NCBI RefSeq assembly: GCF_029076445.1
Contig: NZ_JARESG010000014.1
Coordinates: 1-64,000, forward strand
DNA: 64,000 nt
Direction: 5' to 3'
Origin: Pseudarthrobacter naphthalenicus
Lineage (GTDB): Bacteria > Actinomycetota > Actinomycetes > Actinomycetales > Micrococcaceae
Every line of letters begins with the position of its first letter. The first letter of the stretch is position 1. Made by a program: the position numbers and the translations under genes. Positions 41,517-46,443 of the stretch are shown in pieces. The notes beneath the pieces are model-generated. The model searched no databases. It saw only the letters and a program-made list of their open reading frames with translations, and was not told the DNA's origin.

Positions 41517-43040
41517 CTAGTCCTGGAAGTACTCCACCTTGGCGCCGATGGCGTTGAGCCGCTCGGCCAGGTCCTCATAGCCGCGCTCGATCACGTAGAT
41601 GTTGCGCAGCTCGGAGACTCCCCTCGCGGCGAGCATGGCCAGCAGCAGGCACGCGGCCGGGCGGAGGGCCGGCGGGCAGCCCACCTCGGCGGCGCGCCAC
41701 TTGGTGGGTCCGTTGACGTAGATCCGGTGCGGGTCCAGCAGCTGCACCTGGGCGCCGAGCCGGTTCAGCTCCGTGAGGTAGATGGCCCGGTTCTCGTAGA
41801 CCCAGTCGTGGATCATGGTCTGGCCGTGGGCGTTGGCGGCGATGACCGCAAAGAACGGCAGGTTGTCGATGTTCAGCCCGGGGAACGGCATGGGGTGGAT
41901 CTTGTCCTCCGGCGCCCGCAGCTCGGACGGCTTGGTGGTCACATCCACCAAGCGGGTCCGCCCGTTCCGGGCCATGTATTCTCCGGAGATCTCCAGCTTC
42001 TGGCCCATCTGCTCCAGCGTGGCCAGCTCGATCTCCATGAACTCGATGGGGACCCGCCGGATGGTCACCTCGGAGTTGGTCACAATGCCGGCGGTGATCA
42101 GGCTCATGGCTTCGATCGGATCCTCGGACGGGAAATATTCGATGTCGGCATCCACAAACGGCCGGCCGGTGATCTTCAGGGTGGTGGTGCCCACGCCGTC
42201 GATCTGCACGCCGAGCATCTCCAGGTAGAAACAGAGGTCCTGGACCATGTAGTTGGGGCTGGCGTTGCGGATGATCGTGGTGCCGCGGCGGTGGGCCGCC
42301 GCCATGATGGCGTTCTCGGTCACGGTGTCCCCGCGCTCAGTCAGCACAAAGGAGCGGTCCATGGTGTCCGGCTGCGGAGCGCGGACGGCGTAAAAACCCG
42401 CGGTGGCCTCCACCGTGAGGCCGAACTCGCGCAGGGCCTGCATGTGCGGTTCCACCGTTCGGGTGCCCAGGTCGCAACCGCCGGCATACGGCAGGCGGTA
42501 CTCGGAGCTCTCGTCCAGGAGGGGCCCCAGGAGCATGATGACGCTACGGGTGCGGCGTGCCGCGTCCACGTCCATGGCGGCCAGGTCCAGGACTTCCGGG
42601 CGGCGGAGTTGAAGGTCGGTGTCGTTCAGCCAGGTGCATTCCACGCCGATGCTGGTCAGCACCTCCACGATCCGGTTGACCTCTTCGATCCGGGCGAGCC
42701 TGCGCAGGACTGTGGTGCCGCGGTTGATCAGGCTGGCGCACAGCAGGGCCACCCCGGCGTTCTTGCTGCTGTTGACGTCCACTGCCCCGGACAGGGTCCG
42801 GCCGCCTTCGATCCGCAGGTGGGTCATCTGCGGTTTGCCCACCTTGAGGATGCTGCGCTCGAAGATCGTTTCGAGGCGCTGGATCATCCTCAGGCTGAGG
42901 TTCTGCTTGCCCTGTTCCATGCGGGCGATGGCGCTTTGGCTGGTTCCCAGCGCTTCGGCCAGCTGGCCCTGAGTCCAGCCCTTGTCGATGCGGGCGTCCT
43001 TAACAGTGGCAGCAATGTGCTCTGCAGTTTCCTGAGTCAT
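41517..43040 (-). CDS. XRE helix-turn-helix fused to UDP-GlcNAc enolpyruvyl transferase (MurA-like)
   Basis: 507 residues. About 8-64 is an XRE DNA-binding domain ([20 protein letters not shown]). About 70-507 is an EPSP-synthase-like MurA domain that keeps the catalytic residues: K93-N94 (NSSKNAG), C189 in the loop [14 protein letters not shown] (the fosfomycin-reactive position), and [12 protein letters not shown]. MurA makes UDP-GlcNAc-enolpyruvate for peptidoglycan. A DNA-binding head suggests a regulatory or alternative form; a plain murA would be expected elsewhere. The upstream region (43041-43075) is AT-rich with TCATTTATGA and TATGAT, a likely promoter/operator. Confidence 0.85.
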
Positions 43041-43183
43041 AGCTAAAAAATATCATAAATGAGTTATTTTGGGTCGATAGCCTAGCGGTTCGGCGGGGAT
43101 TGGACTATAAATATCCACCTCATGCGATACACGTCTCATTCATAACGGTTTTGAATCACCCGTCACCGCCGGACTCCCGCCCG

Positions 43184-43978
43184 TTACCGCCACACGAAGT
43201 TCCAGGTCCCCATCCCGGCGGCGGCAACCACGGCGGCGGCAGCGATCAGCACCCCGCCCAGCACCACCCAGGCGTCCAGCACCGAGTAGGTGGATTCCCG
43301 CGCCCAGGTGCGGTGGCCGGTCCCAAAGCCCCGCGCCTCCATGGTGACGGCCAGCCGGGAGGCGCGCCGGATCGCCTGGACCAGGAGCCCGAAGCCCTGG
43401 CCGAGGGTGGCCCGGAGCCGCTCCAGCGGGCCCCCGTGGGAGCCCACTCCGCGGGCACGGCGCGCCATCCCGATGGTTTGCCATTCCTCGGCCAGCAGTC
43501 CCACCAGCCGCATCGCCGCCAGGGTGCCGAGGACGAACCGGTGCGGGAGCCGGGCCTTCTGGGCGAGGGCGTCGGCGAGGTCCGTCGGGTCGGTGCAGGT
43601 CATCAGCAGGATCGCCGGCAGGGCTATTGCCAGGCCGCGCAGCATGAACCCGAGTCCCAGCTGCAGGGAACCTTCGCTGATGGACCAAATGCCGACGTCG
43701 AGCAGTACAGCGCCGCTGTCCGCGGCCACAATGGCTGTGCTCCAGCCGCCCACCGCTGCCGCGATGATCAGGGGCCAGCCGCGCTGCCAGAGCAGGCGCA
43801 GCGTCAGTCCGGCCAGCGGAAAGAGCGCCAGTTCCGCAACCAGCGCCACCGAGGCGGACACCCAGTCGATGGAGAGCGCCAGGACCAGGGTGATCAGGAA
43901 GACGGCGGCGAATTTGGCCAGCGGATTGGCGCGGGTCAGTACGGCGTGGTTTCCGCCCAGCGTCAGGGCGTCCCTCAT
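43184..43978 (-). CDS. ykoC: ECF transporter transmembrane component (YkoC/EcfT)
   Basis: 264 residues, about five helices, with two Ala-Arg-Gly coupling motifs (MARRARGVG and MEARGFG) that contact the ATPases. ATG 43978 overlaps the ykoD stop (ATGA). Last gene of the TPP-controlled ykoEDC operon for thiamine or its precursor HMP. Confidence 0.88.
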   Translation of the reverse strand: MRDALTLGGNHAVLTRANPLAKFAAVFLITLVLALSIDWVSASVALVAELALFPLAGLTLRLLWQRGWPLIIAAAVGGWSTAIVAADSGAVLLDVGIWSISEGSLQLGLGFMLRGLAIALPAILLMTCTDPTDLADALAQKARLPHRFVLGTLAAMRLVGLLAEEWQTIGMARRARGVGSHGGPLERLRATLGQGFGLLVQAIRRASRLAVTMEARGFGTGHRTWARESTYSVLDAWVVLGGVLIAAAAVVAAAGMGTWNFVWR

Positions 43979-45621
43979 CCTGTCCCTGCTTCCTGGCGGG
44001 CGCCGCCCCGGGAGGCCGGGCCGAGCCGCAGTTCGGTGCCGCCCAGGACGGCGGTGAATTCTTCGTCGTGGGTCACGGAGACCACGGACGTCCCTTCGTC
44101 GAGCAGTTCGGACAGGAACGAGGCGAGCTCGGCCCACGTGTTGGCGTCCTGGCCGAACGTGGGTTCGTCGAGCACCAGGACCCGTGGATGGGCTGCGAGG
44201 ACGGTGGCCACCGACAGCCGGCGCTTCTCTCCACCGGACAAGGTGTAGGGGTTCGCCTCCACCAGGTGGGTCAGGCGCAGCCGCTCCAGCAGTTCGTCCA
44301 CACGTTCCTCCCCGTGCCCCAGATGCCGCGGACCGAACATCAGTTCATCCCGGACGCGCCCTGTGACGAACTGGTGCTCGGGCTCTTGGAACACCGTGCC
44401 GATCCGCGAAATCAGCTGCTTGGCCTTCCACCTGAACGGATCAATTCCGGCGCCTTGGGAAAGCTCGACGGCGGCGGAAACCTTTCCTGCCACCGGCGCC
44501 AGCAGTCCTGCGAGCGTCAGCGCGAATGTGGACTTCCCGGCGCCGTTGGGTCCGGTGACGGTCAGTGCCTGGCCGGCCCGGACCTGGGCGGTGATGCCCG
44601 TTTGGACGGGAACCGGCGGGATGGTCCGGAACCCCCGGCGTCGCGGGCGCTCACGGGACACTGCAAGGTGCTCGGCTGCAAGCAACAGCTCCGCCGTTCC
44701 GCCGGAGCTACCCGAGCTTCCGGAAGCGCCCAAGCTGCCGGAAGCGCCGGTCCGGGGACGCGTGGCCGGAACATACCCCGGCACCCACACCCCGGCGTTG
44801 ATCAGCATGTCCCGCGCCTCGGCGAGCACCCTGTCCGGCGGCCCGTCCAGGAGCACTGCGGAGGAGCCGCCGGGGGTGCCGGAAGCAGTGCCGGCCCCCG
44901 CAGCCGCGCCGGGCTGCAGCACCACGATCCGGTCCACCAGGTCTTTCCAGACGGACACCCGGTGTTCCACCACCACCAGGGTGGCCCCGGTTTTATCGAG
45001 GGAGCGGCCCACCGCGTCACGGACCTCCAGGACGCCGGCCGGGTCGAGGTTGGCGGTCGGCTCGTCCAGCAGGATCAGCCCTGGCCGCATCGCAAGGATC
45101 CCGGCCAGCGCCAGCCGCTGCTTTTGGCCGCCGGACAGGGCCGACGTCGGGTGGTCCAGGGGAAGGCCCGCCGCACCGTCCGGGCGGCCGGCACTCCGCA
45201 GCCCGACGTCGTCGAGCGCTTCGTCCACCCGCCGCCAGATCTCGTCCCGCGGCACGGCCAGGTTTTCGGCGCCAAAGGCGACGTCGTCACCCACGCGGGA
45301 GAGGACGACCTGGGTTTCAGGGTCCTGTTGCATAAGTCCGGCGCGGCCGCGCCGGACACGCGGCGCGGCGCCGTCAATCAGCAGCGTGCCCGTCTCATCG
45401 GCGTCGTCCCCTTCGTCCCCCAGCACCCCGGCCAGCGCATGCAGCAGTGTTGATTTGCCGGCGCCTGAGGGGCCCAGGAGCAGCACCCGTTCACCGGGTG
45501 CGATGTCCAGGTCCAGCCCGTGGACGGCGGGTACGGCGCGGCCGGCGTGCCGCCACCCCCAGCCGCGGGCGGACACGGCTGCGGGGCGCACGGCGGAGGC
45601 GCCGGCGTCGGAAGCGGCCAT
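43975..45621 (-). CDS. ykoD: ECF transporter fused ATPases (YkoD)
   Basis: 548 residues: two ABC ATPase domains in one chain. First: GPSGAGKST, LSGGQKQRLALAG, LLDEPTANLDP. Second: GPNGAGKST, LSGGEKRRLS, LDEPTFGQD. They are joined by a Gly/Ser-rich linker (GASGSLGASGSSGSSGG). It powers uptake with YkoC and YkoE. The ATG shares the base A with the ykoE stop (TGATG). Confidence 0.92.
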   Translation of the reverse strand: MAASDAGASAVRPAAVSARGWGWRHAGRAVPAVHGLDLDIAPGERVLLLGPSGAGKSTLLHALAGVLGDEGDDADETGTLLIDGAAPRVRRGRAGLMQQDPETQVVLSRVGDDVAFGAENLAVPRDEIWRRVDEALDDVGLRSAGRPDGAAGLPLDHPTSALSGGQKQRLALAGILAMRPGLILLDEPTANLDPAGVLEVRDAVGRSLDKTGATLVVVEHRVSVWKDLVDRIVVLQPGAAAGAGTASGTPGGSSAVLLDGPPDRVLAEARDMLINAGVWVPGYVPATRPRTGASGSLGASGSSGSSGGTAELLLAAEHLAVSRERPRRRGFRTIPPVPVQTGITAQVRAGQALTVTGPNGAGKSTFALTLAGLLAPVAGKVSAAVELSQGAGIDPFRWKAKQLISRIGTVFQEPEHQFVTGRVRDELMFGPRHLGHGEERVDELLERLRLTHLVEANPYTLSGGEKRRLSVATVLAAHPRVLVLDEPTFGQDANTWAELASFLSELLDEGTSVVSVTHDEEFTAVLGGTELRLGPASRGGARQEAGTG

Positions 45622-46241
45622 CAGTTGAAGACGGGCTCCGAGGAGGCCTTCCGGGACGCGAAGGAGCTCAGCACACCGGTCCTCGCGAGGCCGCGGGTGG
45701 CCACCCAGGACACGGCACCGGCGATTACGGCGCCGGAGATGGCGCAGAAGAGAATGTAGGCGGCTTTGTCGCCGGCCTCGTAGGCGATGTTCCAGCCCCA
45801 CGGGAGGAACGAGTCGTTCAGGCCACAGAAGAGGCCTGCCCCGGCACCTGCCAGCATGGCGGTGGGCAGGTTGAACTTCCGGTAGCCGAACGCGGCGAAC
45901 ACCAGTTCCGCGCCGAGGCCCTGCAGGATGCCGGAGATCAGCACGGTGGTGCCGTACTGGGATCCCATCATGAGCTCACCGGTGGCGGCCACGGCCTCGC
46001 AGAACAGTGCGGCGCCCGGCTTGCGGATGACGAGCATGCCCAGAATGGCCGGAATCATCCAGCCGCCGGAGATCAGGCCGGTCAGGGGCGGGTAGGTGGC
46101 GTTCATCGGTGCCGAGACCAGCGCCGCGCCCTGGTCCCACGCCCAGAAGATCACGCCGCCGGCGATGGCGATCAGAGCCGCCACCACGATGTCCACTACG
46201 CGCCAGGTGTAGCCGGCCTTCTTGATGCTTACTGTTGTCAT
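45621..46241 (-). CDS. ykoE: ECF transporter substrate-binding component YkoE (thiamine/HMP)
   Basis: 206 residues, six helices, with SGGWMIPAILGMLVIRKPGA and MMGSQYGTTVLISGILQGLG of the YkoE family. It binds thiamine or hydroxymethylpyrimidine. ATG 46241 follows AGGAGG. First gene after the TPP riboswitch. Confidence 0.9.
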   Translation of the reverse strand: MTTVSIKKAGYTWRVVDIVVAALIAIAGGVIFWAWDQGAALVSAPMNATYPPLTGLISGGWMIPAILGMLVIRKPGAALFCEAVAATGELMMGSQYGTTVLISGILQGLGAELVFAAFGYRKFNLPTAMLAGAGAGLFCGLNDSFLPWGWNIAYEAGDKAAYILFCAISGAVIAGAVSWVATRGLARTGVLSSFASRKASSEPVFN

Positions 46242-46326
46242 GTCAACCTCCTGAGGTACAGGAGGGGAGAGTATTCGCGGTTTCGGCCCGGCCTGCGCCG
46301 CCCGGATCCGGACACTCTGAGAAGCT

Positions 46327-46443
46327 CGACTCCCTTGCGCCGGTACTAACCGGATCAGGTTCGAGGGTCTGCGGCTGTCCGCACTCTCAGCGCCCACCAC
46401 CGGCTGCATTCCTGCAGTGCCCGACGGCGGCGCTCCCCTGTCG
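46327..46443 (-). promoter_or_regulatory. TPP riboswitch (THI element)
   Basis: On the minus strand: CGAC (P1), GGGGAGCG, CTGAGAGTGCGG, GACCCTCGAACCTGATCCGG, TTAGTACCGGCGCAAGGGAG and closing GTCG. CTGAGA and ACCTGATC-xGG-TTA-xACCxGCG-xAGGGA are the TPP-binding signatures. It sits about 85 nt before ykoE, so thiamine pyrophosphate should repress the operon. Confidence 0.95.

Follow-up and report, generated by a model that had tools for sequence, protein, structure and literature searches.

An XRE-MurA fusion of actinomycetes with a dedicated palindrome at its own promoter: a likely self-repressing enzyme

BirA and PutA are active enzymes that carry a DNA-binding domain and repress genes of their own pathway, and for both the metabolite switch is proven. 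The C-proteins of restriction-modification systems control themselves at a palindromic operator, where they both activate and repress. MurA (UDP-GlcNAc enolpyruvyl transferase, EC 2.5.1.7), whose loop Cys is the target of fosfomycin, is known to be controlled mainly at the level of the enzyme or its breakdown. The nearest published architecture that we found is BzdR, in which an XRE-type helix-turn-helix (HTH) is joined by a linker to a shikimate-kinase-like domain derived from a metabolic enzyme; enzyme activity has been lost, and the authors deem this loss essential for becoming a regulator (PMC3602430).

The gene described here lies in a 64,000-nucleotide stretch of Pseudarthrobacter naphthalenicus DNA (the window) and encodes a fusion of an XRE-type HTH with a MurA-type enolpyruvyl transferase. 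Like BzdR, the fusion consists of an HTH, a linker and a metabolic-enzyme domain, but it retains all catalytic residues (116/116 orthologs). With BirA and PutA it would share the combination of an active enzyme and a DNA-binding domain, both halves being conserved, whereas the folds and pathways differ, its only evident target is its own gene and its metabolite switch would be conjectural. Its HTH has the Cro/C1 fold in common with the C-proteins and SinR, which, however, are small stand-alone regulators lacking an enzyme domain. On the comparative evidence given below we consider it likely that the fusion is a bifunctional MurA that represses itself through a dedicated operator.

Named Streptomyces loci carry an HTH-MurA that is 64-66% identical to that of the window, and family f21, read as Streptomyces from its place beside named loci in the tree, contains a plain MurA as well as the fusion; a second family (f24) was assigned to the Aeromicrobium family on the same grounds. 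At one Streptomyces locus (L117) the fusion adjoins an aconitase gene, and SCO5999 is the aconitase gene. SCO5998 adjoins SCO5999 (PMC12161575), and from its kin and neighbouring gene we take Streptomyces MurA2 (SCO5998, sven5810) to be the probable ortholog of the fusion. The accessible parts of the literature present MurA2 as a second UDP-GlcNAc transferase or as a regulatory target, with a BldM-WhiI footprint at murA2 (sven5810; PMC4125116), a SigB-dependent promoter (PMC8346170) and a predicted DmdR1 site (PMC12161575) at SCO5998, and a whiI phenotype that was not reproduced by murA2 overexpression (PMC11005364); these parts do not mention an HTH or self-binding. Searches of the open-licence PMC literature showed no paper that describes an HTH in either MurA or MurA2, and none about the palindrome, an absence that carries little weight.

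Domains and distribution of the fusion gene

The earlier note had read 41517-43040 as an XRE domain fused to a MurA-like transferase that keeps the Lys-Asn pair, the loop Cys (C189) and ENR and is preceded by an AT-rich region. Pfam bears out the fusion over exactly these positions (507 aa), with EPSP_synthase (PF00275) matching residues 78-495 at 150.1 bits (cut-off 22.8). The named residues are present, K93-N94, C189 and E416-N417-R418 aligning with E. coli K22-N23, C115 and E329-N330-R331, and the AT-rich stretch indeed lies directly upstream of the gene (Table 1). The protein passes the cut-off of the NCBIfam subfamily NF006873 (321.1 bits, cut-off 297) and misses that of the equivalog TIGR01072 (307.9 bits, cut-off 392.7), so that we file it as a divergent MurA-type clade working like MurA and not as a TIGR01072 member.

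The AF2 model of the protein (pLDDT 88.5, pTM 0.81) has the MurA fold: a structure search with residues 71-507 gave 5ujs as best match (Z 46.9, over 415 residues), included 1uae (Z 45.9), and also matched NikO (Z 40.9). The fusion differs from solved MurAs, to which it is ~23-30% identical, by the added N-terminal HTH. This domain was folded and searched separately; its helices span residues 3-20, 24-31, 35-42 and 50-60, and Foldseek matched it to C.AhdI, SinR and ClgR (probability 1.00, query-normalised TM-score 0.66-0.77), the best E-value being only 0.0042. Orthologs are compared in the following in a set of 116 proteins, obtained from 126 loci scoring above 400 bits after removal of L048 (a broken gene) and of identical proteins.

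Table 1. Positions of the fusion gene, its domains and the predicted promoter elements in the window
Feature	Position	Strand	Remarks
HTH-MurA fusion gene	41517..43040	-	ATG start, 507 aa; full-length orthologs in 37/37 genus genomes
XRE/Cro-C1 HTH domain, N-terminal, residues 13-64	42849..43004	-	Pfam HTH_3, 47.5 bits (cut-off 23); AF2 helices; Foldseek
Predicted recognition helix, residues 35-42, QSAIARME	42915..42938	-	AF2 helix; invariant residues
MurA-type enolpyruvyl transferase domain, residues 72-507	41520..42827	-	PF00275, NF006873, structure match 5ujs
Codon of loop Cys189 (E. coli C115)	42474..42476	-	C in 116/116 orthologs
O2, predicted operator TAACTCATTTATGATATT	43049..43066	-	aligns in register with the TATCTCAnnnnTGAGATA that other families have
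Predicted -10 box TATTTT	43047..43052	-	overlaps O2 at its right arm; six bases separate it from the ATG, which predicts a transcript with little or no leader
O1, second conserved box TATCGCATGAGGTGGATA	43112..43129	-	begins 89 bp before ATG

Every one of 37 genus genomes has the full fusion, as do 5 of 22 from other genera of the order. The nearest named relative is that of Pseudarthrobacter sulfonivorans (96% identical), which places the window in the Arthrobacter group. In a class sample of 246 genomes, each at least 98% complete, 90 carry it, every match starting at query residue 9 or earlier; together with its presence throughout the genus this excludes a chance fusion. A phylum sample of 396 genomes gave strong matches (E < 1e-140) in 16, all inside the class; from other classes, represented by 358 genomes, no match was better than E 2.9e-63. 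Genera with named carriers include Streptomyces, Aeromicrobium, Brachybacterium, Oerskovia, Sinomonas and Intrasporangium, and judging from this distribution the fusion is old in actinomycetes. In a tree that holds two genes twice (L047/L164 and L165/L178) a branch with full support (100/100) sets the HTH forms apart, but their stem is long (4.45 changes per column), which leaves their placement relative to other MurAs unsure.

Several individual records deserve mention. One genus genome (G036) carries two HTH-MurA copies (C35:6551-8074 and C52:41918-43438) that are 77% and 89% identical to that of the window. G040 has an HTH-MurA together with a second MurA of another clade (L156), and G058, of the same genus, has a MurA of that clade (L157) and a MurA1-type gene (L168) but no HTH form, a contrast that looks like gene replacement within a genus. 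A record named Sporosarcina beigongshangi (L098), which sits inside the Arthrobacter group in the tree, and an Acidimicrobiia MAG (L139) are probably mislabelled or contaminated, as both carry an actinomycete-type HTH-MurA. The gene is split into two frames at G194:C1:1261855-1263362 and G641:C1:2095149-2096650; in G194 the frameshift suggests a sequencing error since the fusion is the sole MurA-type gene of that genome.

A palindrome at the promoter of the fusion gene

In families outside the Arthrobacter group the fusion gene has one upstream box, the clean inverted repeat TATCTCAnnnnTGAGATA, which ends ~10 bp before the start codon. The exact form TATCTCANNNNTGAGATA occurs 22 times in the 246 class genomes, once per genome and exclusively in genomes with the fusion, and all 22 copies lie directly upstream of it on the coding strand, ending 7-23 bp before the gene as counted from the extrapolated first residue. 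It is absent from the 156 class genomes without the fusion, and the reversed control gave no match either. With up to three mismatches the palindrome is found upstream of 51/51 distant orthologs at loci that had not been chosen for it (L112 being counted after its start codon was shifted upstream). A further 38 upstream stretches came from genomes missing the exact pattern; two of these genomes, G516 and G652, carry the core next to the gene. A site with up to three mismatches is present in 36 of the 38, often as TAACTCAnnnnTGAGATA, and in two genomes of this set belonging to one genus (G194, G620) no recognisable operator was found upstream of the fusion. The palindrome stays with the fusion gene through unrelated neighbourhoods, and it is found at none of 23 plain murA genes, where the best candidate has six mismatches.

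As a chance control 11,036 other 60-bp segments of the same loci were searched, yielding no match with 0-1 mismatches, 15 with two and two with three. Near-matches were traced in Streptomyces loci to a palindrome of another sequence, TATCTCGATGTCGAGATA; others fall within coding sequence in L107 and L116, and one site is in L128. A control based on stretches upstream of open reading frames was not used; it gave nine matches with 0-2 mismatches, which we ascribe to alternative starts of the fusion gene. TATCTCGATGTCGAGATA is itself conserved upstream in many Streptomyces loci, for example at -388 in L117, where the aconitase gene lies on its side of HTH-murA, and at -461 in L037; a regulator of aconitase, for instance TamR, may bind there.

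In three loci (L115, L121, G549) both arms are altered alike, giving TAACTCATATATGAGTTA (TAACTCA...TGAGTTA), and such matched changes point to a symmetric binder; in many other lineages one arm is changed and the other kept. The earlier note had proposed that the gene regulates itself via the AT-rich region upstream, and comparative genomics strongly supports this proposal, as a gene-specific palindrome sits at the promoter in many families.

The distant orthologs (n=51) have the first base of the site 28-34 bp upstream of the start (L112 after its start shift). TAnnnT is the actinobacterial -10 pattern, and in 49/51 of these orthologs a TAnnnT box shares the two last bases of the right arm; in L047 it follows just after the arm. 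The box ends 6-8 bases before the start in 48/51 and 12 bases before it in two, L112 having none at its annotated start. This placement suggests a leaderless or nearly leaderless transcript with the operator set against the promoter, hence repression.

In the Arthrobacter group the upstream region contains two boxes, O1 and O2 (Table 1). An alignment of 36 genes shows both nearly invariant and the remainder unconserved, and for the two commonest spacings, with 21 genes apiece, the information averages 1.43-1.56 bits per position inside the boxes versus 0.34-0.40 outside them. In the genus of the window the palindrome is degenerate at O2, and part of the conservation of O2 may be that of the -10 box itself. 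O1 is present in 62/65 orthologs, the exceptions being L011, L034 and L094. Its strict form TATCGCAYNNNNYGGGTA, from which the window's O1 differs by one base, occurs once each in 38/61 genus genomes; it lies 70-82 bp before the gene at 29/30 loci, the match in L198 being elsewhere, and of the remaining matches six more fit by their coordinates and two (G669, G673) were not placed. The O1-O2 spacing (n=60) is 73-75 bp in 43 cases and 82-85 bp in 17, with none between, and the tree requires four switches of spacing, at least three of them by well-supported branches. A change of spacing by a full helical turn, with no intermediate values, suggests contact between proteins at O1 and O2.

The position of O1 also bears on the sense of regulation, as the fusion protein might bind the operator but activate, or switch between activation and repression, instead of simply repressing. 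O1 of the Arthrobacter group, at about -89 from the ATG, is in a place where activators can sit, and the C-proteins, which the HTH resembles, activate as well as repress. In the distant orthologs, however, the right arm meets the TAnnnT box in the arrangement described above, and a protein bound to an operator overlapping this box should block the polymerase. We therefore regard activation as unlikely and favour repression.

The predicted recognition helix is the best conserved part of the HTH, with a mean entropy of 0.37 bits compared with 0.63 in the MurA domain and 0.90 over the HTH as a whole; T33, S34, Q35, A37, R40, E42, G44, Q46 and N47 are invariant in 116/116 orthologs. We considered whether the HTH is instead a structural or protein-contact domain that does not bind DNA, the palindrome belonging to another regulator of murA2. 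Streptomyces murA2 does have other reported regulators, BldM-WhiI, SigB and DmdR1 (PMC4125116, PMC8346170 and PMC12161575). The fosfomycin epoxidase HppE, moreover, was matched in the Foldseek search with the HTH; its own XRE-like HTH is not known to act on DNA or to regulate, a warning that such a domain may be attached to an enzyme without a regulatory role. Against a non-binding HTH stands the low entropy of the recognition helix, and the exact palindrome occurs only beside the fusion and in 0/156 genomes without it, a restriction that fits a regulator encoded by the fusion gene itself. We thus give the non-binding domain only a small chance, slightly below that of activation, and keep to the fusion protein as the binder of its own operator.

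Residue 39 was tried as a reader of operator bases 3/16 and is not relied on. In a first set, from which L174-L195 were left out because they had been picked by the exact palindrome, N39 coincided with T/A in 36/38 cases as against 4/13 for other residues (Fisher p 1.1e-5, uncorrected for relatedness). A second batch, chosen mostly for lacking the palindrome core, was mixed, T/A occurring in 7/15 cases with N39 and in 0/9 with H or T at residue 39, which was unread in 14.

The earlier note had also suggested that other genes could be regulated, which found no support. Exact palindromes in the 246 genomes lie only beside the fusion, and near-matches of the operator in the own genome are no commoner than in the reversed control (5 versus 6), which lends no support to a regulon beyond the gene itself. 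Scattered further matches of the 16-base core ATCTCANNNNTGAGAT occur in 26/156 genomes without the fusion versus 52/90 with it, their places being known only among the matches listed. Upstream of the gene in the window (43184-46409, minus strand) lies an ECF-type transporter, with a CbiQ-like T component, an ABC ATPase (two matched stretches) and an ABC_cobalt S component. In the neighbourhood survey that the earlier note had suggested, the T component was kept within 8 kb in 41/42 Arthrobacter-group loci (L063-L104), but the window's neighbours were absent within 8 kb from the 38 loci of other families (L105-L142), except for a LysE match in L123, in a comparison that leaves out the YbdK and ECF S component rows. 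Six loci from six families likewise have differing neighbours (ten proteins compared). A function in an operon or neighbourhood was rejected because these neighbours are not common to the loci of other families.

The transferase domain and the MurA complement

Nine positions of MurA (E. coli K22, N23, R91, C115, R120, D305, R331, R371 and R397), to which we ascribe the known catalytic roles, are invariant in 116/116 orthologs. Loss of catalytic residues in homologues, which the earlier note had named as a refuting case, is thus not seen for K, N, C and R; E416 is D in 33/116 orthologs and N417 is G in 5/116. The same nine residues are kept in 18/18 rows (17 distinct genes, L165 being identical to L178) from genomes without another MurA. 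The loop Cys is present in all HTH forms compared, whereas 15/23 plain actinobacterial MurAs have Asp instead.

The own genome (G000) has three PF00275 genes, aroA (C89), the fusion (C6) and a plain MurA of 441 aa (C22) that passes TIGR01072 (418.6 bits, cut-off 392.7); it is the second plain murA for which the earlier note had asked. Among the 90 fusion genomes of the class sample 59 also carry another MurA-like gene and 31 do not. In these 31 of 246 genomes the only PF00275 matches are the fusion and one other gene. As a genuine second MurA (L156, L157) scores near AroA on PF00275, this other gene was compared with AroA and MurA queries, and it is nearest to AroA in 31/31 (333-439 bits versus at most 45 for any MurA). 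All 31 genomes have a murB match, 30 above the cut-off and G539 below it. Two fragmented genomes outside the class sample (G045, G049) likewise have only two PF00275 genes. Since murB is matched and the other PF00275 gene is AroA only, the fusion must perform the MurA step in the 31 genomes. The proposal that the fusion may be an active enzyme is therefore strongly supported, and by the sequence evidence it is almost certainly a working MurA.

The clade nevertheless differs from plain MurAs in its active-site surroundings. The loop S162-V163-G164, which we take to hold the UDP phosphates in MurA, reads G-D-T in the whole HTH clade; G-D and N-Y are found in 45/45 HTH rows (43 genes), S-V and E-P (E188-P189) in 23/23 plain MurAs. 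This change of the UDP-phosphate loop and the uracil contacts (by their presumed roles) would favour another acceptor, and NikO uses a nucleotide acceptor. The fusion could accordingly be a neofunctionalised, self-regulating transferase, with the plain MurA making the cell wall; the long stem (4.45 changes per column), the missed TIGR01072 cut-off and the NikO fold match (Z 40.9) agree with this. Such a division of labour is improbable, though, given the 31 genomes that have a murB match and, besides the fusion, only AroA for PF00275. That the protein is a regulator whose dead enzyme domain serves as sensor, similar to BzdR with its XRE HTH, linker and metabolic-enzyme domain (PMC3602430), is scarcely credible in view of catalytic residues invariant in 116/116 orthologs and of the 31 genomes in which the fusion is the sole MurA-type gene.

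A self-repressing MurA and its meaning

In the favoured reading, a bifunctional MurA repressing itself, the N-terminal XRE-type HTH would bind, as a dimer, the palindrome that meets its own -10 box, and this binding would repress the promoter of the fusion gene. O1 of the Arthrobacter group, which lies some seven helical turns further upstream, would probably be bound jointly with O2 on the same face of the DNA. We infer the palindrome binder, the repressing effect of binding and the bridging of O1 and O2.

Sensing of the substrate by the fusion is only plausible, and that occupancy of the MurA domain by UDP-GlcNAc or PEP changes DNA binding is speculative. An extended reading, which we hold as tentative and rather doubtful, is that MurA, which catalyses the first committed step of peptidoglycan synthesis, acts in much of the Actinomycetes both as the sensor and as the repressor of the gene encoding it. 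The level of MurA would then follow the supply of UDP-GlcNAc via a single operator, with a higher oligomer bridging the two Arthrobacter boxes. Here the substrate would close the MurA domain and thereby loosen or tighten the HTH dimer on the operator, and no other regulator would be needed to set the amount of MurA.

The fusion would be the natural counterpart of the enzyme-to-regulator step proposed for BzdR, with catalysis kept. It concerns the fosfomycin target, and Streptomyces, where murA2 is already known as a target of sporulation regulators, offers a ready test. A MurA with its own DNA-binding domain would form a simple loop of a single protein at the point where cell-wall synthesis starts. 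Aeromicrobium-type actinomycetes, and others, have no MurA-type enzyme besides the fusion, and, if true, the loop would place the entry of cell-wall synthesis under transcriptional control wherever the fusion is the only MurA.
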